50,138 bases of DNA from Candidatus Paceibacter sp. GTDB taxonomy: Bacteria; Patescibacteriota; Minisyncoccia; UBA9983. The position numbers and the translations under genes are program-made. Under the pieces are notes generated by a model. That model saw nothing but the letters and a program-made list of their open reading frames with translations, was not told where the DNA came from and searched no databases. Location: positions 1 through 50,138 of the forward strand of contig JABWAS010000006.1 in assembly GCA_013360865.1 (NCBI GenBank), written 5' to 3'. Below, piece by piece: positions 2,466-50,138 of the stretch; position 1 is the stretch's first letter; each line of letters begins with the position of its first letter.

Positions 2466-5400
2466 TCAATTTTTCATCTCCTTTATTTCCTCCACGATTA
2501 TGGACGTTTCATTGTTGCGGAAAGACAACCGGCCTTTGACGGCGATGCAATTGCCTTCGTATAAAACGCCGGCGTATTTTTCCAGGATTTTCGGGAAGAT
2601 GACGGTTTCCACGCTGTCGGCATAGTCGGATAATTTCATAAAAAGCATCGGGTCGCCTTTTTTGGTGTTTATTTTTTTAGCCTCGTCTATCATGCCGGCC
2701 ACGACGGTCGACATATTGTTGGGCAGTTTTTTGGCCTCGCCGATTTTGGTATTTATTTTTGCTAACTTGTCTTTAAAGCGGTCCAGCGGATGGCCGGAAA
2801 CGTACAAACCCAGCAGCTCTTTTTCCCATAGGAGCCGTTCATGCTGGGTCGCCGGTTCGGCCGGTTTTAATTTCAGGTCGGGCAAGGTGGATGTGTCTTG
2901 CATCAAGGAGAAAAGCGAACCCTGGTTTTTCTTGGCTTTGCCGGAATTACGGCTGTATTCCAAAGCGTCTTCCATGTTAAACAGCATCTGGTTTCTTTCG
3001 CCCAGAGCGTCCATCGCGCCGGATTTTATCAGCGCTTCCAGAGATTTTTTGTTAAGATTTTTGTGTTGGACGCGGTCCAGGAAATCAGCGAAAGATTTGT
3101 AGCGGCCGTTGGCTTTTCTTTCCTCTATCACCGCGTTGGCAATTTCCACGCCGAGATTTTTAATAGTGTAAAGGCCGAAGCGGATGCCTTCGGTTGTTTT
3201 TGACGCTCCGGAAACAGATTTTGGAAAATCCTCTAGCCCCACCCTCGCGGACTCGGGCGGCCGCCCCCGCCCAGGATTTTCAAAATCTGTTTTCTTCGCG
3301 TCAATATTTACCACGGCAAAATCACCCAAACTTTCGTTCACGTCCGGCGGCAGAACGGGCAGCTTCATCCTCACGCACTCGCTTATCGTTTCGGCGATTT
3401 TTTCCACCTCGCCCGCGTCGGCGGTCAGCACCGCCGCCATAAACTCGGCGGGGAAGTTGGCCTTCATGTAAGCGGTTTGATAAGCCACTTTGGCGTAGGA
3501 GGCGGCGTGGGCTTTGTTGAAGCCGTAACCTTTGAATGGGTCAAACAGCCGCCAGAGATCCTCCGCTTTCTGCTTTGAAAGACCGCCGTGCTTCTGACAG
3601 CCTTCTATGAATATTTTTTCCTGCTTGGCCATTTCTTCCGGAATTTTTTTGCCGATGGCTTTGCGGAACTTGTCCACCGTGTCCCAGTTGTACCCGGCCA
3701 GCTCTATGGCGATCAGCAAAACGTCGTCCTGATAAGTCACCACGCCGAAAGTCTTGTCCAGCACCTTAGCCAGTCTCGGGTCGGGATAAGTCACCGGCTC
3801 CTGGCCGTGTTTTCTCTTGATATAAGTGGGAATGTTGGCCATCGGCCCCGGGCGGAAGAGAGCGATCATGGCCATGATGTCGGTGACGGTGGTCGGCTTC
3901 AGCTCCTTGAGATATCGGGTCATGCCGCTGCCGCCAAGTTGGAACAGGCCGATGGTTTCTCCTTTGGCCAGATGAGTGAAGGTGTTTTTGTCATCCAGAG
4001 GGATGTTTTCTATGTCTATATCAATCCCGCGCGTTTCTTTGACCAGTTTGACCGAATTTCCCAAAATAGAGAGGTTTTTTATGCCCAGAAAATCCATTTT
4101 AAGCAGGCCGGCTTCTTCTACCGAATACATATCGTACTGGGTAATGACTTTCTCGCCGCTTGGTTCCAGTTGCAGGGGCACGTAGTCCGTCAGTTCCGTC
4201 GGCGAGATGACGACGCCGGCGGCATGCACGGAAACATGGCGAGCGCAGCCTTCAATTTTTTTGGCGATGTCTATTATTTCTTTCACCTCGGCGTCTTTTT
4301 TATACATCTCGTTCAGCTCCGGCGTGATCTTCAAAGCTTCGTCTATGGTCATGGGGAATCCCTGGGAGCCCATCGGAATCAGTTTGGCGATACTGTCGCC
4401 TAAGGAATAAGGTTTGCCCAAAGCGCGGGTGACGTCGCGCACCGAACCGCGCGCCATCATGGTGCCAAAAGTGCCGATTTGGGCGACGTGGTCCTTGCCG
4501 TACTTTTCTTTGGCGTACTCCAAAATTTCTTCGCGGCGGTCGTCGGCAAAGTCCATATCAATATCGGGCGGCGATGGGCGGTAGGGGTTGAGAAATCTTT
4601 CAAACGGTAGGCCGTATTTTACCGGGTCAACGTTGGTGATGCCCAGCAAATAAGACACCAGCGAGCCGGCCGCCGAGCCTCTGGTGTTGGTCATTATGTG
4701 GCGGCTTTTGGCGAAAGCGATGAGGTCGGCGACGATTAGAAAGTAGGGGGCGTAACCTTTGCCGTTGATGACCTCCAGTTCGTATTCCATTCTTTTTTTA
4801 ATTTCCCCGTTGGCGTCTTCGGCCTCAAACAATTTGGCGTAGTTTTTTTGCGCCGTTTCGGTAATGTATTCTTCAGGTTTTTTGCCTTCGCCCAAGTCCA
4901 GCTTGGGGAACACCCATTTTCCCAGTTCTAGTTTTAGGTCGCACATCTCCGCGATTTTGAAGGTGTTTTCAACCGCGTCCGGATTTTCTTTGAACAGTTT
5001 TTCCATTTCTTCTCCGGAACGCAGGGAGAAATCGTCCAGCTTCATCGTCAGGCGGTTGGCGTCGGCCATTTCCGCGTTTGTCTGGATGGCTACCAGCAGG
5101 TCTTGGGCGGTGGCATCTTCCGGTTTTAAATAATGGATGTCTTGGGTGGCCGCCAGTGGAATGCCCGACTTTCTGGCCAGTTCAACGAGGCCTTTTTGGA
5201 TTTCAGCGTGGTTTTCTATGTCGGGATGATGGCTTATTTCTATGAAAAAATTTCCTTTGCCGAAAATTTCTTCGTATTCTTTGGCCGCTTTTTCCGCCCG
5301 TTCCATATCTTTTACTCCCACCATTCTGGCCACCTCTCCGGCCATGCAGGCGGAAAGCGCAACGAGCCCTTCCGAATGTTTTCTTAAAAATTCTTTGTCC

Positions 5401-5815: not shown

Positions 5816-6436
5816 ATGAAGAAAGAATATTTTATTGTCGGAATTGACGAAGCGGGGCGGGGGCCGTTGGCAGGGCATCTTGCCGTTGCCGCGGTGGCGG
5901 CAACAGTAATTTCTAAATCCGAATTTCTAATTTCTAAAAAAAGCCAAAACCCCAAAATCCAAAACGCAAAACTGCTGAAAAATATCAAAGATTCCAAAAA
6001 GTTGAGCGCGGAGAAAAGGGAAGAATGGAGAGAAATTATCAGGAAAAATTTTGAGAATCATTGCGTTTTTATCAGCCATAAAATGATAGACAAAATCGGC
6101 ATCGGCGGGGCGGTAAGATTGGGCGTGGAAAAAGTTTTGGAAAAGTTTTCCCGAAAACCGGATTTGGTTTTAATGGACGGTTCGCTTAAAGCGCCGAAAG
6201 AATACAATCAATTAACCATAATAAAAGGGGACGAAAAAATACCGCTGATTTCCGCCGCGTCCGTCATTGCCAAAACCGCGCGGGACAAAAAGATGCTGGT
6301 GTTGGACAAAAAATATCCGCAGTACGGCTTCGCCGTCCATAAGGGCTATGGCACCAAATCTCATTACGAAAAAATAAAAGAAAACAGTCTTTGTAAAATC
6401 CACCGAAAATCTTTTTGCAAAAATATCGGCGTTTAG
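5816..6436 (+). CDS. rnhB: Ribonuclease HII
   Basis: Removes ribonucleotides and RNA primers from RNA-DNA hybrids. The N-terminal GIDEAGRGP carries the first catalytic Asp and Glu; DSKKLS, the MDG strand and the ISAASVIAKTARD motif are all present. It has 206 residues, normal for the family. Residues about 32-53, between the first strand and DSKKLS, are a Lys/Ser/Asn-rich insertion encoded by an A-rich repetitive stretch (AATTTCTAA repeated three times, then CCAAAA/CCAAAATCC units). A -10-like TATTAT (5803-5808) is eight bases before the ATG and no Shine-Dalgarno is visible, so the transcript may be leaderless. It is divergent from dnaE. Confidence 0.96.
   Translation: MKKEYFIVGIDEAGRGPLAGHLAVAAVAATVISKSEFLISKKSQNPKIQNAKLLKNIKDSKKLSAEKREEWREIIRKNFENHCVFISHKMIDKIGIGGAVRLGVEKVLEKFSRKPDLVLMDGSLKAPKEYNQLTIIKGDEKIPLISAASVIAKTARDKKMLVLDKKYPQYGFAVHKGYGTKSHYEKIKENSLCKIHRKSFCKNIGV
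5911..5972 (+). repeat. A-rich repeat-derived insertion inside rnhB
   Basis: Three AATTTCTAA units and following CCAAAA-type units resemble the AT-rich intergenic repeats at 34453-34590 and 35085-35135. The stretch is translated in frame within RNase HII at a position where the family normally has a short loop. Confidence 0.5.
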
Positions 6437-6516
6437 TTGATTTTTTAATTCTCAACGTGCTAGGCTTTAGCAAACTGTTTTTATTTTTGGAACTTTTACA
6501 TAAGGAGGTAGTTATA

Positions 6517-7698
6517 ATGATAACTTACAAAGATTGCGGTGTTGATTATGGAAACATGGACCCGCATAAGAGGGAGTCCATGTTGGAGGCAATGCAAACG
6601 GATGAGTGGTTGGAAAGATTTGGTTTTTCAATAGTTCCCTGGACGCGCGGCGAGAGCGCCACTCTTGTTGAAACACCCTTCGGATATATCGGCTTTGTTG
6701 TTGAAGGTCTTGGCACGAAAAATCTCGTGGCCGACGCGGTAAAAAAAATACTTAGAAAAACAGGCAGAGATGAAAAAACTTTCTATGATTATATAGCGCA
6801 ATGCAATACGGCAATGGCGTTTAACGATCTGATAACGGTTGGCGCCAGGCCGTTTTTGTACGGCCAATATTTGGCGGCGGGAAGTTCCAGTTGGTTTAAG
6901 GAGGAAACGCGAAGGCGGGAACTTATTAAAGGCACAAAAAATGCCTGCGATGCGGCCAAATGCTGCTGGGGCGGCGGAGAAACCCCGACTCTTCAAGGAA
7001 TTATTTATCCCGACACAGTGGATCTTGCCGGAGCTGTGGTTGGCTTCATACCACTGCAGAAGAAAGGCCAGATTATCAATCCGGCCAAAATAAAACACGG
7101 CGACGCCATCGTTATGATTGAAAGTTCAGGCATCCATGCCAACGGCCTAACGCTGGCTAGAAAAATTGCCGAAAAAGAACCGTTATGGCGGCGCTTGCGC
7201 GGATGGCTATTTCCGTGGTTGTTCAAAAAAAGCCGTCGTTTGCCTAAGGGATATAAAACTGTTTTGTCGGACGGTCGGACTTACGGGGAATCATTGCTTG
7301 ATCCGACGCATGTTTATGTCGGCCTTGTGGAAGATTGTCTTGATAAAGGCATTGATATCCATTACGCGGTGAATATCACCGGCCATGGTTGGCGGAAGTT
7401 GATGCGGGCGCCGCAACAATTCACATATGTCATTGAATCGATCCCAAGGCCCCAGCCGGTTTTCCAAATTATTATTGAGACAACCGGAATGAGTTTAAAA
7501 GAGGCCTATGGCACCTTCAACATGGGCGCGGGCTTTGCCTTGTATGTCGATCCCAAAGACTCTGACCAAGTTATTGATATAGCGCGTAGGCAAGGTCGGG
7601 AGGCATCGCGGGCCGGACATATTGAGGAAGGCGAAAAGAAAGTCGTAATCAAACCTCTCAACATAGAATTTGGCGGAGACGAATTAAAAATCCGCTAA
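6517..7698 (+). CDS. purM: Phosphoribosylformylglycinamidine cyclo-ligase-like (PurM family)
   Basis: Best read as AIR synthetase, which converts FGAM to AIR with ATP in purine synthesis. Family landmarks in order: TYKDCGVD near the start, NDLITVGARP, GGETPTLQG, SSGIHANGLTLARKI, and YGTFNMGAGF near the C-terminus. It is divergent: the usual GTDGVGTK is VEGLGTKN, the TGGG loop is TGHGW, and there is an extra basic/aromatic insert after LARKI. Length is 393 residues against about 345. The start at 6517 is chosen because a strong AAGGAGG (6502-6508) precedes it; an upstream in-frame ATG has none. It is convergent with purQ-purL across a shared terminator. A related PurM-fold enzyme cannot be excluded, but the neighbours favour PurM. 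Confidence 0.85.
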   Translation: MITYKDCGVDYGNMDPHKRESMLEAMQTDEWLERFGFSIVPWTRGESATLVETPFGYIGFVVEGLGTKNLVADAVKKILRKTGRDEKTFYDYIAQCNTAMAFNDLITVGARPFLYGQYLAAGSSSWFKEETRRRELIKGTKNACDAAKCCWGGGETPTLQGIIYPDTVDLAGAVVGFIPLQKKGQIINPAKIKHGDAIVMIESSGIHANGLTLARKIAEKEPLWRRLRGWLFPWLFKKSRRLPKGYKTVLSDGRTYGESLLDPTHVYVGLVEDCLDKGIDIHYAVNITGHGWRKLMRAPQQFTYVIESIPRPQPVFQIIIETTGMSLKEAYGTFNMGAGFALYVDPKDSDQVIDIARRQGREASRAGHIEEGEKKVVIKPLNIEFGGDELKIR

Positions 7699-7716
7699 GT
7701 TCGTTCAACAAAAAAG

Positions 7717-7749
7717 AAAAGGGTAACCTAAACAACAGGTTACCCTTTT
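7717..7749. terminator. Bidirectional terminator between purM and purQ
   Basis: AAAAGGGTAACCT (7717-7729) pairs perfectly with AGGTTACCCTTTT (7737-7749) around a seven-base loop. A-run and T-run flank both sides, so it can stop transcription from both convergent units. Confidence 0.9.
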
Positions 7750-7768
7750 AAAGTTGAAAACAGGAATT

Positions 7769-8518
7769 TTATTTGAAGTAATCAACCGCATTTTCAAAGA
7801 TTTTTAACCCATGCGGTTTTACATTTTCCGGAAACCTCCTCCATTCCGGGTATTGAGTCAGCTCCACAAATCTTTCCGGATGGGGCATCAGGCCGAAGAT
7901 TCGACCGGTCGGATCGCAAATGCCTGCGATGCAATTGAGCGAACCGTTGGGGTTGGCTCCCAGATACCGGATAACTGCCAGGTTTTCTTTTTCAATTCGC
8001 TCAAGTGCTTGTCCATCCGCGTAAAATTTCCCCTCTCCGTGAGCGATCTGCAGAAACTTAACCCCTGCCATTCCCAAAGTAAATACGCAAGGGCTTGAGC
8101 TGTTTATTTCCAAGTTAACCCACCGGCATTCAAAATGTCCCGAAGAATTATGAGCCAAAGTCGCTTCCATTTTGCCGATATTTCCGAAGGGTAGCAACCC
8201 TGTTCTGACCAGAACCTGGAAACCGTTGCAAATCCCGATAATCAACTTTCCCAGCGCTACAAAATACCGCAATTGATCCCTTAGAAACGTTGTTAATTCC
8301 AAAGCAAGAACTTTCCCAGATGCTATGTCGTCTCCGTAGGAAAATCCACCCGAAATGGCGAGAATCTGATAATTAAAAAGCTTGTCAGCGCCGTTTCTTA
8401 ACTGATTAAGGTGGACTGTTTTGCAGATTCCTCCCGCTTTTTCAAAAGCGTAAGAGGTCTCATTGTCGCAATTTGTCCCATCAGTTTTTAAAATACAGAC
8501 ATTCGGTTTATAAGCCAC
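7769..8518 (-). CDS. purQ: Phosphoribosylformylglycinamidine synthase, glutamine amidotransferase subunit
   Basis: Class I glutamine amidotransferase that supplies ammonia to PurL for the FGAR to FGAM step. The nucleophile Cys is in GICNGFQVL, and the catalytic His and Glu are in MPHPERF near the C-terminus. SGGFSYGDDIASGK is the PurQ-specific oxyanion/hinge region. It has 249 residues, typical of the small PurQ. Its start overlaps the 3' end of purL by 11 bases, indicating translational coupling and equimolar production. Confidence 0.95.
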   Translation of the reverse strand: MAYKPNVCILKTDGTNCDNETSYAFEKAGGICKTVHLNQLRNGADKLFNYQILAISGGFSYGDDIASGKVLALELTTFLRDQLRYFVALGKLIIGICNGFQVLVRTGLLPFGNIGKMEATLAHNSSGHFECRWVNLEINSSSPCVFTLGMAGVKFLQIAHGEGKFYADGQALERIEKENLAVIRYLGANPNGSLNCIAGICDPTGRIFGLMPHPERFVELTQYPEWRRFPENVKPHGLKIFENAVDYFK

Positions 8519-11462
8519 AAAACACCTCCTGCATGGGTTTCTTCCATGCGTTTTTTAAGTCACCAAGAATAATGTTTAACTCATAATTTCCGCCGTACCG
8601 CATGTCCATGGCGTTTATGTAGATAATATTTGATTCCGTCACCCGGCCCAGTTCATAATGAGGCAGTCCGCGGAAAAGTTTTTCCGCGCCTTCTGTAAGA
8701 TAGGTGTATTCATCAATCTCAAGCAAAAAGCATCCGGGGGTTTCGTTGAACAAAATAAAATCAGGACCAACGTTATTGTCCATTTGCAGTGGATGCAAGC
8801 ATTTTTCCAGCATCGCTCCTTTATTTCCTCCGAAGCACATTTCCGCCAAATTCGCCGCTATGCCGCCCTCGCTGATATCATGCGCGGCAAGAATTTTGCC
8901 CTCGTTAATCAGTCTATGCAGGCAATCAAAAATTTTCGGCTGAAGCTTTAGATCAACTTCTGGCACCCTCCCTCCTTTTATTCCATGAATCTGGTAATAC
9001 ACCGAGCCGCCCATGGCGTTAAAGTCCATCTTGCCAAGCAATACAATAAAAGAACCCGGTTTTTTAAAGGAAGCCGTGATCGTTTTCCGAACATCGGGAA
9101 TTTTTCCGAAAGCGGAAACGCATAACACCGGGGGAATTTTGATGACAATATTTTTTCCGTTCTGTTTTCCCTTGTACGTGCTGGACAAACTATCTTTGCC
9201 GGATATGAACGGAATTTTGAACGCATGCATAATTTTAACGCACGCATCCACAGACAAATTCAAATCAGCCAAAGATTCATCATCCGGAAACGGCCAGATA
9301 AAATTATCAATCAGCCACGATTCGCGATAATTTCCTCCCACCGCGACCAAATTGGACAAGGCTTCCACCGCCGCCCAGATGCTTCCATGGTACGGGTCAA
9401 TTTTGTTCAGAACCGGATTAAGCCCGTGGCTTATTATCAGGCCATAGAGCTTGCCTAAGATCGGAGTTAAAACAACGGCGTCATTCGGGCCGTCCTGACC
9501 AACTCCGGCATAAGGAGGCAAAGCGTTTGTCCCTTGCACGCCGTGGTCGTAACGCCGGACAATCGGCTCCTTGGAGCAAACATTCAAGTGGCTGACGACT
9601 TCAAAAAATTTATTGACGTAATCTTCGTCAGTCAAAAGACCGGAGATAGACGGTTCATGATGCGCTCCTTTTTCCAATTTGCCAACCATAACCCGTTGCG
9701 GCAATCCATTGTGCAGGAATTCCATATCAAGATCGCAAACGGTTGTAATTGTAAAAACTGGCGAAATATCTTCTTTATAATCGGTCTTTTCGCAATATGT
9801 CACAATAAGCCGCTTTGAATCTGTGAATTCTCCCAGCTCAACCGCTTCCACATTATAACCGGCGCATATTGAGATAAATTCTTTAACATTTTCCGGCGCA
9901 ACGGCTACAATCATTCTTTCCTGCGATTCCGAGATCCATATTTCCCATGGGGCAAGGCCGGTATACTTAAGCGGCGCCCTTTCCAGGAAAACGCGAACAC
10001 CCGTTTCATTACCCATTTCCCCAATGGCGGAAGAAAATCCGCCGGCTCCGCAATCAGTGATCGCGCGAATCAGTCCTTTATCCCGGCAAACCAGAAGCGC
10101 GTCAAACATTCTTTTCTCTTCAATGGCGTTGCCTATCTGCACGGCGGCGGAGTTGACCGAGATTGTTTTATCAGTCATCTCTCCGCTGGAGAATGTGGCG
10201 CCATGTATGCCGTCTCTGCCGGTTCTACCGCCGACGGCGATAATCTTGTCGCCCGGTCGGGGAGAACCTTTTTTGCATTGGCCTGCCGGAATTATTCCGT
10301 AAGCGCCCACGATGACTGACGGTTTTGCCCTGAAGTCATCATGAAAGTGCAGCGATCCGTTATTAGTCGGAATTCCCATTCTGTTTCCGTAATCGCCCAC
10401 GCCCTTGATGACATTTCTCAAGATATTTTCCGGAGGCAGACAGCCTTCCGGCAATAATTCCTCGGCAAGGCTTGGCGGAGCAAGGCAAAACATATCGGTA
10501 GAAGCAATCACTTTCGCGCCTTGTCCTGTTCCCATTATGTCCCGGAATACCCCTCCGCTTCCTGTCGCCGCGCCTCCTTCAGGCGCGATCGCGCTGGGAC
10601 TGTTGTGAGTTTCCACTTTGCCGCAAATTGCCATCCCTTCGTAAAATTCGGCGGCGCCGGAGTTGTCCACAAATGAAGACAAAACTCCCTTGCTGTACAG
10701 AGCGGAAACTTTTTTCAGCCTGTTAATTAACGGTTCTTTTTCTTTGCCGTCAATTATCAGTTTGGACTTGAAGGTCTTATGTCCGCAATGCTCGCTCCAT
10801 GTCTGGGCGATTGTTTCCAGCTCGGCATCCGTCAGGTCTCTCCCAATTTTTTGGAAATAATTTTGGATCGCATTCATCTCCTCCAAATTAAGGTGTAGCT
10901 TCCCATCGGAGGATAGCTTACTTAACTGTTCATCGTTGAGGTGTCTTATCGGCACCGTGAAAACTTTGCCGACGCAGCCCTCGATAATAAGCGTCTTTGG
11001 TCTCTCTTTTATTACCGTTTGCGTGGTCTCATTGATTAGCAAACGATTGAGTATTGTTTCAATCTCTTCATTCGTCGGTTTTAAGAAACCGGAGATGATG
11101 TGATACTCAATGCTTGTATCAGCCGCCTTTAGATTGTGGAAACCCAAATCCCTGACAACTTTTTCAAGAGAAGCCGCCTCAGGGTTCATTACTCCCGGCT
11201 TGTAACCAACCTCTATTATCCTTGAGGTTGCCGTACTTATCTTTAATGGATGTTCCAGTGAAAAATAATCATCAAACTCAACAATGCTTTCAATGATTTT
11301 TCCCACTTCTTTTTCGGTCAACCCTTCAAATTTTAAAATTTTCGCGGTCCTGACATTAAAGACGGACGCTAACCCCATTTTGACTATCTCCCGATGCACA
11401 TTGCGCCCCAAAAAATCATCTTTCTTGCTTTTCTTGGCAACTCTTACTTCAATCACGCTCAT
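8508..11462 (-). CDS. purL: Phosphoribosylformylglycinamidine synthase, PurS-like/PurL fusion
   Basis: ATP-dependent FGAM synthase. The first ~170 residues look like two PurS-type repeats (VIEVRVAKK... and a second copy ending ...IEYHIISGF), followed by the PurL body: TWSEHCGHKTF, VETHNSPSA, a glycine-rich ATP loop, GGRTGRDGIHGATFSS, DCGAGGFSSAIGEMG, and the second half with SGKDSLSS and AAHDISEGG. The start at 11462 (MSVIEV) is preferred because AGGAAGG lies at proper spacing; the ATG nine bases earlier would be too close to it. About 984 residues. It forms an operon with purQ by overlap. It is divergent from rpmF. Confidence 0.94.
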   Translation of the reverse strand: MSVIEVRVAKKSKKDDFLGRNVHREIVKMGLASVFNVRTAKILKFEGLTEKEVGKIIESIVEFDDYFSLEHPLKISTATSRIIEVGYKPGVMNPEAASLEKVVRDLGFHNLKAADTSIEYHIISGFLKPTNEEIETILNRLLINETTQTVIKERPKTLIIEGCVGKVFTVPIRHLNDEQLSKLSSDGKLHLNLEEMNAIQNYFQKIGRDLTDAELETIAQTWSEHCGHKTFKSKLIIDGKEKEPLINRLKKVSALYSKGVLSSFVDNSGAAEFYEGMAICGKVETHNSPSAIAPEGGAATGSGGVFRDIMGTGQGAKVIASTDMFCLAPPSLAEELLPEGCLPPENILRNVIKGVGDYGNRMGIPTNNGSLHFHDDFRAKPSVIVGAYGIIPAGQCKKGSPRPGDKIIAVGGRTGRDGIHGATFSSGEMTDKTISVNSAAVQIGNAIEEKRMFDALLVCRDKGLIRAITDCGAGGFSSAIGEMGNETGVRVFLERAPLKYTGLAPWEIWISESQERMIVAVAPENVKEFISICAGYNVEAVELGEFTDSKRLIVTYCEKTDYKEDISPVFTITTVCDLDMEFLHNGLPQRVMVGKLEKGAHHEPSISGLLTDEDYVNKFFEVVSHLNVCSKEPIVRRYDHGVQGTNALPPYAGVGQDGPNDAVVLTPILGKLYGLIISHGLNPVLNKIDPYHGSIWAAVEALSNLVAVGGNYRESWLIDNFIWPFPDDESLADLNLSVDACVKIMHAFKIPFISGKDSLSSTYKGKQNGKNIVIKIPPVLCVSAFGKIPDVRKTITASFKKPGSFIVLLGKMDFNAMGGSVYYQIHGIKGGRVPEVDLKLQPKIFDCLHRLINEGKILAAHDISEGGIAANLAEMCFGGNKGAMLEKCLHPLQMDNNVGPDFILFNETPGCFLLEIDEYTYLTEGAEKLFRGLPHYELGRVTESNIIYINAMDMRYGGNYELNIILGDLKNAWKKPMQEVFCGL

Positions 11463-11557
11463 AAACACCATCCTTCCTGTTTAAAAAGTTATTAAAGTAC
11501 AATACGAAAACGTTTACGCCATGCTAGCATCGGGTTTAAAAGGAATCAACGCGGTTG

Positions 11558-26874: not shown

Positions 26875-27687
26875 ATGCAAAAACCATACTACGAAAAACC
26901 AAGATTTAAGCTATATAAAGATGACTGTTTGAATGTTTTAAATTCTCTGTCAGAGAATTCGGTAGACATGATTTTTGCTGATCCGCCTTATTTTTTATCA
27001 AGCGGCAGTTTCACTTGTCAAAACGGGAAAATGGTCAGCGTTAAAAAGGGCGACTGGGATTTAACCAACGGCACAAAAAAGAATTTTGAATTTCATCTTG
27101 CATGGATTGAAGCATGCAGGCGAGTTTTAAAGCCGAATGGAACAATTTGGGTTAGTGGAACTTATCACTCAATTTATCAGTGCGGCTTTGCATTAGAAAT
27201 AAAAAAATTTCATATCTTAAATGATATCGCATGGTTTAAGCCAAATGCATCGCCGAATTTATCATGCAGATTTTTCACGGCCAGCCATGAAACTTTGATT
27301 TGGGCGAAAAAAGAAAAAAAAGCAAAGCACGCTTTCAATTACGAATTAATGAAAAATAGCGACTGGATGGGAGATCAACTAAAAAAACAAGGACTTCAAA
27401 TGCGATCCGTTTGGTCAATCAATACGCCCAAACCGATTGAAAAAAAATTCGGCAAACACCCGACGCAAAAACCCTTCGATTTGTTAAAAAGAATTGTTTT
27501 GGCAAGCACTAACAAAGGCGGTTTAATTTTGGATCCGTTTACGGGAAGCTCTACGACAGGTCTAGCTGCTTATCTTTATGGTCGCAATTTTATCGGCATT
27601 GACAGCGAAAAACAATATCTTGATTTATCAATAAAACGTTTTGAAGAGTTGAATAAAAACATGAAAAGTAAATTTTCTAAAAAATAG
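26875..27687 (+). CDS. Type II DNA methyltransferase (beta-class, DPPY)
   Basis: Site-specific adenine (or N4-cytosine) methyltransferase that protects host DNA. Motif IV DPPY is at 36-39 and the AdoMet-binding DPFTGSSTTGLAA (motif I) is near 219-231; this order with the N-terminal DPPY marks the beta class. HPTQKP before motif I is the usual motif X region. The companion nuclease starts two bases downstream. The nuclease family suggests GATC recognition, but specificity is inference. The region is AT-richer than its neighbours, suggesting acquisition. Confidence 0.93.
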   Translation: MQKPYYEKPRFKLYKDDCLNVLNSLSENSVDMIFADPPYFLSSGSFTCQNGKMVSVKKGDWDLTNGTKKNFEFHLAWIEACRRVLKPNGTIWVSGTYHSIYQCGFALEIKKFHILNDIAWFKPNASPNLSCRFFTASHETLIWAKKEKKAKHAFNYELMKNSDWMGDQLKKQGLQMRSVWSINTPKPIEKKFGKHPTQKPFDLLKRIVLASTNKGGLILDPFTGSSTTGLAAYLYGRNFIGIDSEKQYLDLSIKRFEELNKNMKSKFSKK

Positions 27688-27688
27688 T

Positions 27689-28333
27689 ATGAAAATAGTT
27701 ACAAGAACAACAGCGATAAACAATTTGAAAAAACACATCGGAAAAGATTTGCGAAAACTTGCTTTGCAACATGGAATAACAACCTACGAAACGGGAAAAC
27801 AAAACAAAGGCTGGAAGGGTTTGGTTTTGGAAAGATTGGCAGGATTGCAAACAAATGTTTCTAAAGCGCCAAACGGGCTTTCATACGAATTGAAATCAGT
27901 AAGTTTTCGTAAGGTTAAAAACGAACTTGTGCCAAAAGAAACAATGGCAATTACAATGATCAACCCCGAAGAATTAAAGCACCATTCATTTTTTGAAAGC
28001 CATTGTTGGGCGAAATTAAAATCTATTGTTTTTTGCGCCGTAAAATGGGATGGCATAAATTCAGACGGAGCGGAATTGTTGAAAGTGGCAAGTTTAGATT
28101 TTGCCGAAGATGACGAACTTATCAAGGAAATTAAAGCTGATTATGATTTTATCCGTGAAAAGCTTATTAAAAGAGGTTTTAACGCGTTAACTGGCAAAGA
28201 CGGAAAATGGATACAAGCCAGAACGAAAGGAATCGGCGGGATAAATTTAAAAACAGGAAAACGCCGTCCAATCACTCGCGCGTTTTATGCCCGAATAAGT
28301 TTAGTTAAAAAGATTTTTGAAACTGCAAGTTAA
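27689..28333 (+). CDS. Restriction endonuclease of the MutH/Sau3AI family
   Basis: A 214-residue nuclease predicted to cut the DNA left unmodified by the adjacent methyltransferase. Family marks: KGWKGLVLERLAG with Glu48; YELKSVSF with the catalytic Glu67-x-Lys69; PKETMAITMINP; the LTGKDGKWIQARTKG block; and RAFYAR near the end. The Asp usually 6-7 residues before the ExK motif is not obvious here (APNGLSYELK), so the metal site may differ. Founding members recognise GATC; that specificity is inference. Confidence 0.85.
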   Translation: MKIVTRTTAINNLKKHIGKDLRKLALQHGITTYETGKQNKGWKGLVLERLAGLQTNVSKAPNGLSYELKSVSFRKVKNELVPKETMAITMINPEELKHHSFFESHCWAKLKSIVFCAVKWDGINSDGAELLKVASLDFAEDDELIKEIKADYDFIREKLIKRGFNALTGKDGKWIQARTKGIGGINLKTGKRRPITRAFYARISLVKKIFETAS

Positions 28334-42515: not shown

Positions 42516-42543
42516 TTGACAAAAATTTTAATCCGAGTATACT
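42516..42543 (+). promoter_or_regulatory. Promoter of the polysaccharide operon
   Basis: TTGACA (42516-42521), 16-base spacer, TATACT (42538-42543). Transcription should begin near 42550, giving a leader of about 225 nt before the first gene. Confidence 0.8.
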
Positions 42544-42558
42544 TCTAAACATAATCAT

Positions 42559-42607
42559 TCCATAACCAATATTAAAAAATTATTAAAACAAGGTTATGGA
42601 TTTTTTA
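42559..42607 (+). terminator. Leader hairpin with T-run, upstream of the riboswitch
   Basis: TCCATAACC (42559-42567) pairs perfectly with GGTTATGGA (42592-42600) around a 24-base A/T loop, followed by TTTTTTATTT. It could be a weak terminator or pause site before the aptamer. Confidence 0.5.
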
Positions 42608-42634
42608 TTTGGCAAAAACAATTCAATAACATTA

Positions 42635-42712
42635 GATGAAAGCAAGGAAACGCGGCTAAATTTGGGCGCCTGAAGCCGCGCGGAGCAAGTGGCGCAACCG
42701 GTCATCGCTTTA
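42635..42712 (+). promoter_or_regulatory. Class II cyclic-di-GMP riboswitch (GEMM-II) aptamer
   Basis: The leader matches the class II c-di-GMP aptamer of known structure in order: GGAAAC (42646-42651), a stem CGCGGCT/AGCCGCG (42651-42657 with 42674-42680) enclosing TAAATTTGGGCGCCTGA, and GCAAGTGGCGCAACCG (42684-42699). GCGCC (42666-42670) pairs with GGCGC (42691-42695) as the pseudoknot. In the Clostridium class II RNA the equivalent segments are GGAAAC, TAAATTGGGC, CTTGA and GTGCAACCG. P1 closes with GATGA/TCATC or AAAGC/GCTTT. It precedes an exopolysaccharide operon, a natural c-di-GMP target. Recognition is by motif memory, not a model search. Confidence 0.85.
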
Positions 42713-42731
42713 TAAGGTGAGCGGTTTTTTT
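42696..42731 (+). terminator. Riboswitch expression platform: intrinsic terminator
   Basis: AACCG (42696-42700) pairs with CGGTT (42722-42726), with TCA/TGA and CTT/AAG pairs above it, followed by a run of seven T. The left arm uses the conserved AACCG and the 3' strand of P1, so ligand-bound aptamer and terminator are mutually exclusive. Confidence 0.75.
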
Positions 42732-42775
42732 ATTATTAACACATTATTAATAAACTTTAAGTTAATTTAAAAATT

Positions 42776-44113
42776 ATGATAAAAACCATAAAAATTAAGC
42801 CGGAAGTTGCCGCCAGAGCGGAAAGAACCGGCAAAAAATCGGAAACGGTAGCCGTTATAGGACTCGGGTACGTAGGTCTGCCTTTGGCGCTTATCGCGGC
42901 CAAGAAAGGTTACGAAGTTTTCGGCATAGACATAAATAAGGAAAAAGTTGAACTTGTTAACTCCGGCAAAAGCCCGTTTAAAGACGAGTTGGCCGAGCGC
43001 GAACTCAAAGCCGGAACGACGATGAAAGCTTTTGCCGATTTTGCCAAAGTTAAAGAATCCGATATCGTCGTTATCTGCGTGCCGACGCCGGTATATGAAA
43101 ATCATATGCCCGACTTGAGGCCGGTGGAAGGAGCTTGCCGCGGCATCGCGCCGTTTGTAAAAAAAGGCCAACTCATAATTTTGGAATCAACCGTCAATCC
43201 TGGTGTCTGCGACGACATCGTTATCCCCATTCTGGAAAAAGAAACCAATATGAAAGCGGGTGTTGATTTTTACGTCGCCCACTGTCCGGAAAGAATAAAT
43301 CCGGGCGACCCGAAATACAACGTGGAAAATATTAACCGCGTCGTGGGCAGTTTGGAAGAAAAAGGTTTAAAAATGGCTTTGGATTTTTACGGTTCCATTA
43401 TCACCGGCACCATCAAGCCGATGGGTTCGCTCAAAGAAGCGGAATCGGTAAAAGTCGTGGAAAATTCTTTCCGCGACATCAACATCGCTTTCGTCAATGA
43501 ACTGGCAATGTCGTTTGCCAAGCTTGGCATAGATATTGTCAATGTCATCAACGGCTGCGCCACCAAGCCGTTCGCTTTTATGGCGCACTATCCTGGTTGC
43601 GGCGTGGGCGGCCATTGCATTCCGGTAGACCCTTATTACCTTATTGAGTATGCCAAGGAAAAAGGCTTTGAGCACGATTTCTTGCGACAGGCCAGAAGAA
43701 TAAATAACCATATGCCAAAGTTCACGGTGGAGCAAGCCATTGCCGGATTAAATGAGAAAAAGAAAGCTATCAACGGAGCCAAAGTAGCAGTGCTCGGGCT
43801 GGCTTACAAAGCGGGCATAGACGACAGCCGCGAGAGTCCCTCGTTTGAAATAATCAAACATCTTAAAGCTGTTGGGGCAAATGTTGCCTCTTACGACCCG
43901 TTTGTGTTGAAACAGTCAACGACGCAGAGTTTGGACGAAGCATTAGACGGCGCTGTGGCGGTTATCGTGGCCACCAATCACAAGATGTTTAAAGAAATGA
44001 CACCGGATTATCTGAAGAGGAAAGGCGCAGAAGTCGTCGTAGACGGCCGCAACTGCCTTAACAAAGAAGACTTCACCCAAAGCGGAATTGTTTATAAAGG
44101 TATAGGGAGATAA
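42776..44113 (+). CDS. Nucleotide-sugar dehydrogenase (UDP-glucose/UDP-ManNAc dehydrogenase family)
   Basis: 445-residue NAD-dependent enzyme that oxidises a UDP-hexose or UDP-HexNAc to its uronic acid. N-terminal Rossmann motif VIGLGYVGLP (about 27-36); VPTPVYENHMPDL; ESTVNPGVCDD; HCPERINPGDP; KVVENSFRDINIAFVNE; and the catalytic Cys in GCGVGGHCIPVDPYY (about 281). It looks closer to the WecC/WbpA branch (ManNAc/GlcNAc uronate) than to Ugd, but this is not certain. First gene after the riboswitch; the glycosyltransferase follows after two bases. Confidence 0.92.
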   Translation: MIKTIKIKPEVAARAERTGKKSETVAVIGLGYVGLPLALIAAKKGYEVFGIDINKEKVELVNSGKSPFKDELAERELKAGTTMKAFADFAKVKESDIVVICVPTPVYENHMPDLRPVEGACRGIAPFVKKGQLIILESTVNPGVCDDIVIPILEKETNMKAGVDFYVAHCPERINPGDPKYNVENINRVVGSLEEKGLKMALDFYGSIITGTIKPMGSLKEAESVKVVENSFRDINIAFVNELAMSFAKLGIDIVNVINGCATKPFAFMAHYPGCGVGGHCIPVDPYYLIEYAKEKGFEHDFLRQARRINNHMPKFTVEQAIAGLNEKKKAINGAKVAVLGLAYKAGIDDSRESPSFEIIKHLKAVGANVASYDPFVLKQSTTQSLDEALDGAVAVIVATNHKMFKEMTPDYLKRKGAEVVVDGRNCLNKEDFTQSGIVYKGIGR

Positions 44114-44115
44114 AA

Positions 44116-45447
44116 ATGACTACACAAAGCTTAAAATTAAAAAAGAGCGTTGATTTCTGGAGCTTAAATTATTCAAGTATACTATTCCAAGTTTCGTTGT
44201 ATATCTTGATGGGTCTTATTGTGTTTTTAATAACGTTGTTAAAAACACACAGTGCTTCTTATTTCTTTAAAAGCCCTGTTGTTTATATTTACACACTATT
44301 TGTTACTTTATTTAGATTATCGAGACTTGGAGGAACTATTCTTTACCCCTCCGTTGATAAGAAAATTAAAGAAGTAAAGCAATATACAAACTACGAACCG
44401 TCAGTTACTTTTGTGATACCTTGTAAAAATGAAGAAGATGCAATATACAAGACAATATCAAAATGTTTTGAATCTAATTATCCGACAGATAAAGTCGAAG
44501 TGATAGTTGTAAATGATGGAAGTACAGACGGAACGATCAAGGTCTTAAAAAAGGCCCAAAAAGAGTTTGATAATTTAACTGTAGTTGATTGGAAAATAAA
44601 TCAAGGCAAAAGACATGCGATGGCGGAAGGTTTTAAAAGGGCAAAAGGAGAAATTATTATTCAATTAGACAGCGATAGTTATATTGAACCAAGCACCTTG
44701 CCAAAACTTGTTGAATATTTTAACAATCCTGAAATAGGGGCTGTTTGCGCGCATGCTTACATAGAAAATTCAGATCAAAATTTACTTACAAGAATGCAAG
44801 CTGCTCACTATTACATAGCTTTTCGTATATCTAAAGCGGCAGAATCATCTTTTGCTTCTGTTTTTTGCTGCAGCGGGTGTTCATCGGCATACAGAAAAAG
44901 CATTGTTCTTCCTATAATTGACAAGTGGTTAGGAGAAACTTTTTGGGGTTTGCCTATAACATGGGGTGACGACAGAGGCCTTACAAATTGGGTTATAAAA
45001 CAAGGTTATAAAACCGTATATACTGATAAGGCTAAGGCTTATACTATTGCTCCGGCTAAATGGAAACAGTTTATAAAACAACAGATTAGGTGGAAAAAAG
45101 GCTGGCTTGTTAACTCTATAATTGCAGGCAAGTTTATTTGGAAAAAAGAACCATTCGTAGCTTTTAGTTATTTTTTTCCACTTACCCTCACAACATTAGT
45201 ATCGCCGTTTATAGCATTAAAAGTTTTTGTTTGGGATATAGCCATAAATGGCGTTTATCCGTTTTATTTTATAGCTGGGTCATTGTTAATAAATTGCATA
45301 ATTGTTGTATATTACAGAATTTTATCACCTAAAGATAAATATTGGTTTTATACATTCATTTGGACATTTTTAAACATGTTTTTCCTAAGTTATATTCTTT
45401 TTTACGCTCTTGCCACCATACAGAATAGAAAGTGGGGAACAAGATAA
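44116..45447 (+). CDS. Processive family 2 membrane glycosyltransferase
   Basis: 443 residues with two N-terminal helices (about 18-40 and 55-78), a cytoplasmic GT-A domain, and about three C-terminal helices. The motifs of processive synthases are in order: VIPCKNEEDA, VVNDGSTDGT, LDSDSY (DxD), WGDDRGLT and QQIRWKKGW (QxxRW). This is the layout of hyaluronan, cellulose or poly-GlcNAc synthases, which both polymerise and extrude the chain. The neighbouring dehydrogenase would supply a uronic acid donor. It is AT-richer than its neighbours, suggesting separate ancestry. Confidence 0.9.
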   Translation: MTTQSLKLKKSVDFWSLNYSSILFQVSLYILMGLIVFLITLLKTHSASYFFKSPVVYIYTLFVTLFRLSRLGGTILYPSVDKKIKEVKQYTNYEPSVTFVIPCKNEEDAIYKTISKCFESNYPTDKVEVIVVNDGSTDGTIKVLKKAQKEFDNLTVVDWKINQGKRHAMAEGFKRAKGEIIIQLDSDSYIEPSTLPKLVEYFNNPEIGAVCAHAYIENSDQNLLTRMQAAHYYIAFRISKAAESSFASVFCCSGCSSAYRKSIVLPIIDKWLGETFWGLPITWGDDRGLTNWVIKQGYKTVYTDKAKAYTIAPAKWKQFIKQQIRWKKGWLVNSIIAGKFIWKKEPFVAFSYFFPLTLTTLVSPFIALKVFVWDIAINGVYPFYFIAGSLLINCIIVVYYRILSPKDKYWFYTFIWTFLNMFFLSYILFYALATIQNRKWGTR

Positions 45448-45454
45448 AATAAAA

Positions 45455-47869
45455 ATGATATTAAATAAACACATAGTAAAAGTAAAAATATTATTTTTTG
45501 CATTCATAATGATGCTTGGTCTTGCCATGGTGAGCGGTAGTTTCTTGCTTGTAGATTTTCCGCAAAAATATAGTGTCGGCGCAATAAGTTTTGCAAATTT
45601 TTTTAAGTATAAAATCGCTTTTTCCAGAAACAATAATAGCGGTTTGATTGCTAGCGCGGTTTCAGCATTTAAAAAAGAAAATAATGGTGGTCTTGAATCC
45701 AGCAATTCTGCTCATAAGAAAAACGCCAATTCCGTTCCAGTTCTTGTCTACCATGGCATTATTGACGAGAATCCGGACAGGTTCAGCCTGACCAAAGACC
45801 GATTCAGGGAGCATTTGTTCGCGCTTAAAAAGGCCGGGTACGAAACAGTAACGATGGAAGATTTTTACGCTTTTATAAAGGGTGAAAAAGAATTGCCGGA
45901 AAAGTCTTTTGTTCTGACTTTTGACGACGGCAGAAAAGATAGCTATTACCCCGCCGACCCCCTGCTTAAAGCGCTTGATTATAAAGCGGTGATGTTTGCT
46001 GCCACTGGAGCTTCTTTGCCGGAAACGCCATACAACTCAAAATATTACCTTTCTCAAAAAGAGTTGGAGAGAATGGTTAAATCCGGAAGATGGGACGTCC
46101 AATCCCACGCCGTGCAGATAGACGGGGGGTTCATAAAAATAAATTCCGAAGGCGAGAAAGGAAACTTTTTGAGCAATAAAATGTTTTATGAGAGCGATGG
46201 ACGGCTTGAGAATGACGCGGATTATAAAAAGAGAATCAGTGACGAGTTGGCCAATTCCAGAAAAACCATTGAAGAAAAGCTGGGAGGAAAAGTTATAAGT
46301 TTTTCTTATCCGTTCGGCGATTACGGCCAACAGACGGAAAATTATGACGGCGCGACAGGAGTTATTTCAGAGCTTATGAAACAAAATTATGAAATGGCTT
46401 TCCGCCAGATATGGCCGCAGGACAGCGGTTTCAGCTTCAATTATAAATGGGATTATCACTACATGCTCAAAAGAATAGAGCCGTCTCCGGAGTGGTCAGG
46501 AGAATATCTTGTTGAATATTTATCCGGTGGAGAAGGCAAAAAATTGCCTTATGAAGAAAAATTTTCCAACGAAAACCAATGGAAAAGAACATGGGGACAG
46601 GTTGAATTGAATGGGGGCACGATTGAACTCGGTTCAAGAGAAGACACCAGCGGATCTTTCGTCTTTTTGGACGGGTCTTATCCTTGGACCAACTATATTT
46701 TCAATACCGCCATTGACTGGAAAAAAGGGACTCATGTCAGTTTGGCGGCCAGGTTTAAAGACGAAGATAACTACGCTGCCTGCGCTTTCAGCGACGACAA
46801 TCTAAGAATAGAACAAAAAATTGCCGGAAAAACCAGAAATATAGTAGATAAGAAAAACATCTACGATATACCGAAAGAAAATGTTCGGCTTGGTATCTCC
46901 GTTATCGGCGACACGGTGAGATGTTACGTCAATGGCAACGAGGTGGCTTACGCCTACTATTTAAGTCCGCTTTTGGCCAACGGAGGGATCGGATTAAAGA
47001 CCTGGGACAGGGAATTGGGAAACAGTTTAATTTATGTAAAAGATATTAAGGTTGAGGAAGTTAAAACTGGTGAAGATGTTGAGCTTGCTTTGGCGTCGTT
47101 TAAAGAAGATTTGACCGTCAAAGAATCGGTCACGGCGGAACAGAAGAAAAAAGAAGAAGAGGCAAAAAAGAAACAGCAAGCCGCCCTTAATAAGAAAAAA
47201 CAATCTTCAAGTTCATCTGTAAGTTCCTCTGCCGCGCTTTCGTCATCGTCAAAACCGGAATTTTCTTCTTCGAGCTCTTCAATTTCAATTCCGCCTATTT
47301 ATCTTACCGATACTTCTGGCATGTCTACGCCTTACGCCGCGAACAACTTTGACGATATTTCCGGCTGGAAGAATCTGTCCGGAGAAGTTTTCGTTAAAGG
47401 CGGGACATTGCATATCGCGTCTAACGCTTCCACCACTGCCGGCATGACGGTTTTGGCAGGCTCCAAAGACTGGACAGATTATAATTTCAGAACGAAGCTG
47501 GATTGGAACAAGGGCTCCACTTTCACGATTATTGCCAGATACAATGATCCTAAAAATTATATGTCTTGTACTTTCTCTCATTACGGCGAGTACGCGAGAA
47601 TTTACCAGACGGTCAACGGCAAGACGAAAACACTTGGTAAAAGCGGCCGTTTGCCGATACCTTTTATGGAGCCTTGGCTTAACAACGATTACGGAGTCAG
47701 CGTCAACGGCAACAGCATCAGATGCCTTGTTAACAACCAGTGGGTGTTAAAGTATAATACCGATGAAATGCCGAAGTCCGGCGGCATCGGATTAAAAACC
47801 TGGGACGCTAACCCCGCTTACAGCGAAGTGTCGGTCAGGGAATTGCGCGCCGAGACGATTGGCAATTAA
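45455..47869 (+). CDS. Polysaccharide deacetylase with two lectin-like domains
   Basis: 804 residues. Start at the Met of MILNKHIVKVK (45455), directly after the glycosyltransferase stop. A signal-anchor helix (about 9-34) precedes a NodB-type (CE4) deacetylase domain (about 90-360): VPVLVYHGII, TFDDG near 154-158, a SHAVQID motif where the second His of SHxxxH is replaced, and SYPFGDYG. Two tandem jelly-roll domains follow (about 370-550 and 625-800), each with an ANGGIGLKTWD or SGGIGLKTWD end, separated by a Lys/Glu and Ser-rich linker. It probably trims acetyl groups from the exported polymer while bound to it. It overlaps the next gene. Confidence 0.9.
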   Translation: MILNKHIVKVKILFFAFIMMLGLAMVSGSFLLVDFPQKYSVGAISFANFFKYKIAFSRNNNSGLIASAVSAFKKENNGGLESSNSAHKKNANSVPVLVYHGIIDENPDRFSLTKDRFREHLFALKKAGYETVTMEDFYAFIKGEKELPEKSFVLTFDDGRKDSYYPADPLLKALDYKAVMFAATGASLPETPYNSKYYLSQKELERMVKSGRWDVQSHAVQIDGGFIKINSEGEKGNFLSNKMFYESDGRLENDADYKKRISDELANSRKTIEEKLGGKVISFSYPFGDYGQQTENYDGATGVISELMKQNYEMAFRQIWPQDSGFSFNYKWDYHYMLKRIEPSPEWSGEYLVEYLSGGEGKKLPYEEKFSNENQWKRTWGQVELNGGTIELGSREDTSGSFVFLDGSYPWTNYIFNTAIDWKKGTHVSLAARFKDEDNYAACAFSDDNLRIEQKIAGKTRNIVDKKNIYDIPKENVRLGISVIGDTVRCYVNGNEVAYAYYLSPLLANGGIGLKTWDRELGNSLIYVKDIKVEEVKTGEDVELALASFKEDLTVKESVTAEQKKKEEEAKKKQQAALNKKKQSSSSSVSSSAALSSSSKPEFSSSSSSISIPPIYLTDTSGMSTPYAANNFDDISGWKNLSGEVFVKGGTLHIASNASTTAGMTVLAGSKDWTDYNFRTKLDWNKGSTFTIIARYNDPKNYMSCTFSHYGEYARIYQTVNGKTKTLGKSGRLPIPFMEPWLNNDYGVSVNGNSIRCLVNNQWVLKYNTDEMPKSGGIGLKTWDANPAYSEVSVRELRAETIGN

Positions 47870-49907
47870 AGCAAATACGGCTTTCGCTTTCCTGTTTTTA
47901 AACGGAGGAAAGTTTGCCAAAAATATTTTTAAAGATCTGGCGCTTCTGTCCAAATGGCAGCTGGCCGGAGTGCAGTCGCCTTTCGTGGATTTATTTTCCG
48001 CTAACATCGTGCTGGCCGAAGAAGGCAGTATGAGCGACAGCGCCAGCGCGAGCTGGTGGCTCAACTCCGGAGCATATTTTTATATAAAGAACGGTTACAG
48101 CTCCACCATCCAGGGGCCTTTGCCCAAAGACGATCCGTGGAGAATATATTACGAAGGCGACAACACGGAAGACACCGACGGCGGCTATTATCCGCAAAAC
48201 ATTTTTCGTCTCGTTACCAGAACGAAGTGGCAGGATTTAAAACAAGAGGTGTATTACAAAATAACCAAGCATAATTTGAGCGCCAGCACCAACCGCAACC
48301 AATCCAACGGCCTGCTCCTTTTTAACCGTTACCAGAACGGCGACAATTTGTATTATACCGGCATACGAGTGGACGGGACTTCCGTCATAAAGAAAAAGAA
48401 AAACGGCAATTACTACACGTTGGCGCAGGAAAAAGTTTTTAACGGCGCCTACGACGCTTCTTCCAATCCCAATCTTATACCGCAGAACGTCTGGATCGGA
48501 TTGCGCAGCGAAGTTTCCACCAGCGCCGACGGCACGGTGGACATAAAGCTTTATATGGACAACGGCAAGACAGGTTCCTGGGCGCTCATCGCCCAGGCCA
48601 AAGACAATAATACCAGCTACGGCGGTTCGGCAATCACCGCCGCCGGTTATGGCGGCATCAGAACTGATTTTATGGATGTGCAGTTCAGCGATTATAAAAT
48701 AGAAGAAGTGGAGCTAAGTTCCTCCTCTTCCGCGGTTTCTTCTGTTGAGTCGTCAAACAGTTTTTCGGCGTTTTCTTCGTCCGGTGTGGCAAGCTCCGCC
48801 TCTTCAATAGAAGAAACTAATTTTTCTTCTTCGGCGGCGGCTTCCAGTTTGCCTAAATCTTCCTCGTCGTCTTCACTGGCGACAAGCAGTAAATCTTCAA
48901 GCGCTGTTTCTTCCGCGGCGACTGCTTCGTCCAAATCATCCTCATCCTCTTCAACGGTAAAATCCTCATCGTCCGCATCCGCCAAAAAATCATCTTCAAG
49001 CTCTTCGGTTAAAAAGTCTTCCTCGTCTTCGTTAAAATCATCGTCGTCTCTGGCTAAATCTTCTTCGTCTTCATTTAAATCCTTATCTAGTTCAAGTGTT
49101 TCCGGCGCGGCGCAAAGCTCGGAGTCAGCTTCATCTTCATCAGAGCAGAGTCACGGAAATTCGGGTGAACATTCCAACAATGGCAATAACAATAACAACA
49201 ACGGGGGCGGAGGAGGAGGAATGATTTTTTCTCCATTTGCTCAAACGATTTCAAGCTCGTCTGAAAAATCGGAAGACGCTAACTCTTCGGAAGCAAATGA
49301 TAAGTCTCAAAAAGAACAGGAAAATCCAATAATTTCACAGAGCGGTAATACCAACCAAGGAGGAGGAGCGGGCGGGCAGAGCGGGGGGATTTCTTTCGGT
49401 GTTATAAATATTTCCGATATAACCCAGGACGTGAAGGCGGAGCTTCTTTCCGGAAAATTCGCCGTGGGAATGAATGACGAAAGGGTGGAAATTTTACAGA
49501 ATATGCTAGCCAGGGATCCGGAAATATATCCGGAAGGCAAAGTTACCGGATTTTACGGCCCGGCCACGGTCAGGGCGGTGCAGAGATTCCAGAAGAAGTA
49601 CGGTTTGGTTGGAGCCGGAACGCCGGACACGACAGGCTTCGGCCTGGCTGGTCCTAAAACAAGAGAAAAACTTAATGAACTTTTCGGTTCGGCGGAGTCG
49701 TCCTCAGAAAGTAAAAATCCCGGCGCGTCAAATGAATCAACCGGAACAGTTCAAAAACCTTTCATTTCCAGCGGGGCTTATAAAGTTTCAGATGTTTCCA
49801 AGATGACGCCGGAGCAGAAAGAAAGCCTTATAAAAGCCATCCGCGTCCAGATAGACGAGCTGTTGAAGAAAGTGATTGAACTGATGTCAGCCAAAAATCA
49901 ATCTTAG
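47859..49907 (+). CDS. Secreted Ser-rich protein with lectin-like and peptidoglycan-binding domains
   Basis: 682 residues. The start is a TTG overlapping the preceding gene by 11 bases; a signal-like segment follows, but the exact start is uncertain. A jelly-roll-like region (about 50-285) is followed by a long Ser/Lys/Ala repeat linker (about 286-430), an Asn/Gly tract, and a PG_binding_1 domain (about 525-605; VEILQNMLARDPEIYPEGKVTGFYGPATVRAVQRFQ). A helical tail ends the protein. It could tether the polymer to peptidoglycan: lectin domain outside, wall binding inside. Ser codons are mostly TCT/TCG/TCC/AGC, so the repeat is not one simple DNA unit. Confidence 0.85.
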   Translation: MAIKANTAFAFLFLNGGKFAKNIFKDLALLSKWQLAGVQSPFVDLFSANIVLAEEGSMSDSASASWWLNSGAYFYIKNGYSSTIQGPLPKDDPWRIYYEGDNTEDTDGGYYPQNIFRLVTRTKWQDLKQEVYYKITKHNLSASTNRNQSNGLLLFNRYQNGDNLYYTGIRVDGTSVIKKKKNGNYYTLAQEKVFNGAYDASSNPNLIPQNVWIGLRSEVSTSADGTVDIKLYMDNGKTGSWALIAQAKDNNTSYGGSAITAAGYGGIRTDFMDVQFSDYKIEEVELSSSSSAVSSVESSNSFSAFSSSGVASSASSIEETNFSSSAAASSLPKSSSSSSLATSSKSSSAVSSAATASSKSSSSSSTVKSSSSASAKKSSSSSSVKKSSSSSLKSSSSLAKSSSSSFKSLSSSSVSGAAQSSESASSSSEQSHGNSGEHSNNGNNNNNNGGGGGGMIFSPFAQTISSSSEKSEDANSSEANDKSQKEQENPIISQSGNTNQGGGAGGQSGGISFGVINISDITQDVKAELLSGKFAVGMNDERVEILQNMLARDPEIYPEGKVTGFYGPATVRAVQRFQKKYGLVGAGTPDTTGFGLAGPKTREKLNELFGSAESSSESKNPGASNESTGTVQKPFISSGAYKVSDVSKMTPEQKESLIKAIRVQIDELLKKVIELMSAKNQS

Positions 49908-49934: not shown

Positions 49935-50138
49935 ATGAAAAGCAAATTTATAAAAACAAAATTATTTTATTTAACTACCATTGTTTTTGTGGTTTGTTTT
50001 TTCACTTTAGTTTGGACCGACAACGCGGCAAACGCATCTTCCGACAACCTCGTCCCCAACCCCTCTCTGGAAACCGCTTCCACCACGCAAGCCGGTCTTC
50101 CTTATGGCTGGCGCAAAGGAGGCTGGGGAACGAATACC
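49935..50138 (+). CDS. Secreted protein, N-terminal part only (runs off the window)
   Basis: 68 codons visible: signal peptide (MKSKFIKTKLFYLTTIVFVVC..., hydrophobic to about 28) and then ASSDNLVPNPSLETAS...GWRKGGWGTN, the usual start of a carbohydrate-binding jelly-roll module. It continues past the window end. It lies 27 bases after the Ser-rich gene, so it is probably in the same operon. Confidence 0.75.
   Translation, partial: MKSKFIKTKLFYLTTIVFVVCFFTLVWTDNAANASSDNLVPNPSLETASTTQAGLPYGWRKGGWGTNT

Follow-up and report, generated by a model that had tools for sequence, protein, structure and literature searches.

Leader, aptamer and operon

The window analysed here is a 50,138-nucleotide stretch of Candidatus Paceibacter sp. 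(contig JABWAS010000006.1). At its downstream end, a class II c-di-GMP (c-di-GMP-II) aptamer and an intrinsic terminator lie between a promoter and a polysaccharide operon:

42516-42543 (+): sigma-70-type promoter, TTGACA-16-TATACT (scan, 11/12 consensus)
42560-42606 (+): leader hairpin CCATAACC/GGTTATGG with a U run, 5' of the aptamer (fold -9.4 kcal/mol)
42629-42712 (+): c-di-GMP-II aptamer with P1 (GATGA/TCATC), P2, P3, pseudoknot and GCAACCG core (RF01786 57.1 bits; model R1 67.8 bits)
42666-42670 (+): pseudoknot 5' strand GCGCC (5/5 pairs; helix 98.4% paired with covariation, 25 sequences)
42691-42695 (+): pseudoknot 3' strand GGCGC (5/5 pairs with GCGCC)
42696-42732 (+; hairpin 42696-42726): intrinsic terminator, AACCG-TCATC...GGTGA-CGGTT, then a T run (fold -13.1 kcal/mol)
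42776-44113 (+): nucleotide-sugar dehydrogenase of the UDP-glucose / UDP-ManNAc dehydrogenase type (PF03721, PF00984, PF03720; TIGR03026 above cut-off)
44116-45447 (+): membrane GT2 polysaccharide synthase, NodC/PgaC/hyaluronan-synthase-like (PF00535; NodC 3e-54 and PgaC 4e-38, both below equivalog cut-offs)
45455-47869 (+): NodB/PgaB-like polysaccharide N-deacetylase with a C-terminal 3keto-disac_hyd (lectin-like) domain (PF01522, PF06439; PgaB 7e-31, below equivalog cut-off)
47859-49907 (+): Ser-rich surface protein with a PG_binding_1 domain (PF01471)
49936-50138 (+): first part of another secreted protein (...NLVPNPSLE...), truncated where the contig ends (sequence)

The first-pass annotation had placed a strong promoter before the leader, and the near-consensus -35 and -10 elements bear this out; transcription probably starts at about 42551. 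The hairpin between promoter and aptamer is followed by six T. The neighbouring gene is divergent, so this hairpin is not the terminator of a preceding gene. The aptamers of genus g372 likewise have a T-run hairpin 5' of them, but there a same-strand gene is found upstream.

The aptamer is the sole riboswitch returned by Rfam cmscan across the whole window, and the only RF01786 match in the source genome (G000). The covariance-model search called for by the first-pass annotation thus gave a significant match, full length (model positions 1-84), with E-values of 4.1e-10 (whole-window scan) and 6.5e-12 (local scan), although the score exceeds the gathering cut-off of 53.5 bits by only 3.6 bits. 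Within its Rfam clan the element scores best with RF01786, above the variant family RF03169. The motifs named earlier (GGAAAC, AAATTTGGGC, CTGA and GCAACCG) and the pseudoknot were all located, and alignment to the Rfam model recovers the conserved core (UUGGGC, GAG, AGU and GCAACCG) that marks family membership. The stretch GGGC...GCAACCG agrees with the Rfam consensus, and the single core departure, U18 to G, falls at a position where relatives vary too. P1 has 5 bp, P2 two pairs and an A-A, P3 7 bp and the pseudoknot, which lies outside the Rfam consensus structure line, 5 bp.

The slim margin over the cut-off is what might suggest a chance or false-positive match. However, none of 14 control genomes has an RF01786 match, and R1, a model built from 25 relatives with the window aptamer as one of its rows, gives 67.8 bits here and no more than 12.4 anywhere else in the window. 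Moreover, the correct genetic position and the terminator were part of neither model. We therefore give a chance match almost no weight and, judging from the sequence, take the element to be a real class II c-di-GMP riboswitch whose ligand is predicted from the RNA type. A search of viral contigs for an exact stretch of the aptamer returned no match.

The proposed target, a polysaccharide operon with a uronic-acid dehydrogenase, a synthase and a deacetylase, is confirmed by Pfam, NCBIfam and PDB-sequence searches. The solved sequences nearest to the GT2 protein are hyaluronan synthases (E 3e-27). Scores fall short of the PNAG equivalogs for both the synthase (pgaC, 131.6 versus 422.3 bits) and the deacetylase (pgaB, 107.3 versus 321.9); the operon product may be a PNAG- or hyaluronan-like polymer. 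PNAG is among the classic targets of c-di-GMP. The same-genus genome G007 carries the dehydrogenase-GT2-deacetylase order twice, which indicates that the operon belongs to the lineage; the dehydrogenase of one copy is 67% identical to that of the window, and the GT2 proteins of the two copies are 58% and 41% identical. A gene similar to the one truncated by the contig end closes the operon in G007 (L080, ORF 3-1661). A plasmid search matched only stretches of ~200 bases within the dehydrogenase region, from rhizobia and relatives. No aptamer was found in the G007 operon leaders, even with filters off. Just 5' of one G007 dehydrogenase gene, where no aptamer was detected, is a terminator-like hairpin (L081, 6950-7000, minus strand; GACCGC...GGCGGTTTTTTT), which may only be the end point of an upstream polA-like transcript.

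Terminator overlap and predicted switching

The 5' arm of the terminator consists of the AACCG core of the aptamer (42696-42700) and the P1 3' strand (42702-42706), as the first-pass annotation had stated. Because these bases are common to both, the terminator and the P1/ligand-bound fold are mutually exclusive, and fold calculation recovers an expression platform incompatible with the ligand-bound fold. P3 with the terminator has an energy of -25.2 kcal/mol, compared with -12.9 for P1, P2 and P3 without the pseudoknot, whose strands contribute about -8. These values favour termination in ligand-free RNA by a few kcal/mol, so a tightly bound ligand should release the RNA, as in an ON switch.

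In the proposed mechanism, transcription would begin near 42551 and the aptamer would fold at 42629-42712. With no ligand, the AACCG core and P1 3' strand would build the 5' arm of the terminator, and transcription would stop near 42732. Once c-di-GMP binds, those bases would be retained by the pseudoknot and P1, no terminator would form, and the exopolysaccharide operon would be read. The ON-switch prediction made earlier gains support from a design that can be read directly in the sequence and is found again in relatives. We consider it highly probable that this c-di-GMP-II riboswitch is a transcriptional ON switch over the exopolysaccharide operon. Counting against this reading are the U18 to G change, a P1 of only 5 bp, a genome in which no c-di-GMP synthase is detected and the G007 operon copies that lack the aptamer.

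Relatives, covariation and targets

RF01786 matches at E ≤ 0.001 occur in 21 of the 380 genomes sampled from the phylum (12 above the cut-off and 18 at E < 1e-7). Only one of 384 genomes of the window's own class exceeds the cut-off, and G000 is the only one of 11 genomes in its family with the aptamer. Model R1 adds longer-looped aptamers in G113 (two), G092 and G230. Own-class loci L003, L111, L106 and L107 have a P3 loop longer by ~24 bases and score below the Rfam cut-off or are missed, yet their pseudoknot and AACCG terminator are intact. Weak RF01786 matches at L002, L004 and L108 are 23S rRNA and not riboswitches; L002 and L004 also contain group I introns (RF00028 matches) within 23S rRNA genes of CPR genomes. 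Three dubious loci (L109, L110 and L024) were left out of the counts.

The first-pass annotation knew of no c-di-GMP riboswitch described in such genomes. This agrees with the open-access literature, the scope of our search, which contained no paper tying riboswitches to CPR except as a proposed tool. The window aptamer is nevertheless not the sole one, as relatives carry many.

Across 25 aligned aptamers, 87.6% of cells are paired and double changes occur in 19 of 21 pairs. Covariation is 0.666, versus 0.239 in shuffled alignments (0 of 500 as high) and ≤ 0.166 when slid; four of five covariation measures beat all 500 shuffles, and the fifth beats all but 8. The pseudoknot is 98.4% paired and takes the forms GCGCC/GGCGC, UCACC/GGUGA, UCGCU/AGCGA and UUGCC/GGCAA. 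P1, P2, P3 and the pseudoknot of RF01786 are thus present with covariation support.

Terminators built on the AACCG core occur at 14 other loci. Ten were identified by folding (L003, L009, L012, L014, L015, L020, L022, L023, L026 and L030) and three by eye, with a T run (L106, L107 and L111); L016, also by eye, is followed by a hairpin that matches but has a weaker T run. Family f154 (L013, L027, L007, L006, L025 and L033) has a differing expression platform, in which the downstream terminator includes a GCTTTCG that is complementary to the 5' CGAAAGC of the aptamer. This is clearest in L013 and L027 and may give another switching logic.

The genes behind aptamers in relatives include GT2 synthases (G113, G687), SipW/camelysin/TasA-type proteins, several with a SipW-like peptidase (G687, G605, G451, G092, G230), response regulators (G716, G656), peptidoglycan hydrolases (G398, G518, G466), a PilZ gene (G652) and GGDEF genes (G399, G634). 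Genus g372 aptamers precede genes for secreted proteins of about 1,660 to 2,015 aa. These targets, c-di-GMP signalling and surface genes, support c-di-GMP as the ligand. At L011 (G399) and L010 (G634) the aptamer lies directly 5' of the GGDEF gene, and feedback of the product on the cyclase is possible. At L087 (G549:C118), two aptamers (2549-2632 and 3012-3095, minus strand) ~380 bases apart precede one LamG-type surface protein.

Ligand source and comparison with known systems

Where would the ligand come from? Judged by size and gene content, the source genome (848 kb, scored 100% complete, a draft of 46 contigs) is of the reduced CPR type, and the organism is probably host-dependent. PurM/PurQ/PurL-like proteins, unusual in so reduced a genome, are apparent from reading the translations at 6415-11471 of the window. 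The absence of GGDEF genes, noted earlier for the window, extends to the whole genome at the sensitivity of two GGDEF profiles, PF00990 and a profile of 27 phylum GGDEF domains, neither of which finds one. This suggests that the ligand does not derive from a GGDEF enzyme of the same cell. Synthesis of c-di-GMP in the same genome, the usual context of the RNA family although not a defining one, was not found in G000. With no c-di-GMP synthase detected in the genome, the RNA might have another natural ligand, or the switch might be silent.

Of the 380 phylum genomes, 134 have a GGDEF match, as do 94 of the 384 in the class. Exactly one is present in 7 of the 11 family genomes, none of which has the aptamer, and the same-genus G007 has no GGDEF match either. 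A GGDEF match is present in 12 of the 18 strong-riboswitch genomes (Fisher p 0.009 versus the rest); in three of those 12, all f154, the signature is degenerate (ETNKF, ENDKF), which leaves an intact one in 9 of 18 (p 0.2). With G656, G527, G092, G113 and G230 added, 8 of 23 riboswitch genomes are without a GGDEF match. Ultra-small groundwater MAGs are reported to contain diguanylate cyclase genes (PMC9938205).

From a reading of the ORFs, the GGDEF gene of G001 and G008 appears to be flanked by groEL and a ribonucleotide reductase gene; groEL was not found in the portions of G000 examined for synteny. In the family mate G002, a GGDEF gene is near a homologue (L117) of the window's large VirB4/TraG-like ATPase. 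In the window itself, a DNA methyltransferase and restriction endonuclease-like pair (26875-28333) lies just 5' of that ATPase.

With the riboswitch taken as real, its c-di-GMP may be made in the cell by a missed enzyme, either a non-GGDEF synthase or a GGDEF protein whose gene fell into an assembly gap. This concerns the ligand source and is compatible with the ON-switch explanation of the RNA. The draft state of G000 leaves room for such an enzyme, and the single GGDEF of most family members argues that the signal is native to the family. On the other hand, G000 is scored complete, G007 likewise lacks GGDEF, the 27-domain profile matches nothing in G000, and G521, a single-contig, 99%-complete g372 genome, has a conserved aptamer and no GGDEF. 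On balance we view a missed enzyme as a serious possibility, if somewhat short of an even chance.

GGDEF was found in none of the three g372 genomes (G521, G529 and G690), where the aptamer and the terminator are each 96-100% identical between copies and the 100 bases upstream 39-61%. This pattern supports purifying selection on the switch without a detectable GGDEF in that genus, and by analogy upkeep by selection is plausible in G000 as well. It also weighs against the idea that the window harbours a relic or recently acquired switch, always off (or constitutive) for want of ligand, since such switches are maintained elsewhere. That idea draws on the restriction of the aptamer to one of 11 family genomes, the lack of GGDEF in G000 and the aptamer-free orthologous operons of G007, but the switch retains an intact pseudoknot, core and mutually exclusive terminator, and we judge a relic quite unlikely.

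Conserved aptamers in GGDEF-less genomes could also mean that the class II architecture there serves another ligand, such as pGpG or another cyclic dinucleotide, and some relatives match the variant family c-di-GMP-II-GAG (RF03169) best. The window, in contrast, fits RF01786 best and has the consensus core, and the same RNA type stands before GGDEF and PilZ genes in relatives, so another ligand seems unlikely here. Finally, we tentatively suggest that some CPR which have lost diguanylate cyclases keep c-di-GMP riboswitches under selection as a means of reading c-di-GMP, or its breakdown product pGpG, from a host or neighbouring cells, so that attached cells would turn on an adhesive surface polymer or large surface proteins. 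If this is true, an intracellular second messenger would be sensed between species.

Gene regulation in CPR bacteria is little known, and the switch offers a concrete, testable circuit with many relatives, in which c-di-GMP is connected with surface polymers, synthases and proteins of the TasA/SipW type. Tests on a synthetic aptamer would not require culture of the organism, and the GGDEF-less subset raises the question of whether an episymbiont senses a second messenger made by its host.

Regardless of the ligand source, the RNA is of a known kind, and the unusual part is its setting, a reduced genome in which GGDEF was not found. The operon shares with PNAG (pga) and hyaluronan synthase systems a GT2 synthase and a PgaB-like deacetylase, and with hyaluronan makers a UDP-sugar dehydrogenase; it differs in that the synthase and deacetylase are below equivalog cut-offs and control is by RNA. 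The variant c-di-GMP-II-GAG is of the same clan and is the best match of G687, G451, G549, G716 and G401, but not of the window. Compared with usual RF01786 members, the window aptamer is set in a reduced CPR-type genome without a GGDEF found, has a P1 of 5 bp and is preceded by a U-run hairpin. Its fold, pseudoknot, core sequence and place before surface/polysaccharide genes are those of c-di-GMP-II. All four class II switches of Clostridioides difficile are ON switches (PMC6200980), and the same logic is predicted here.
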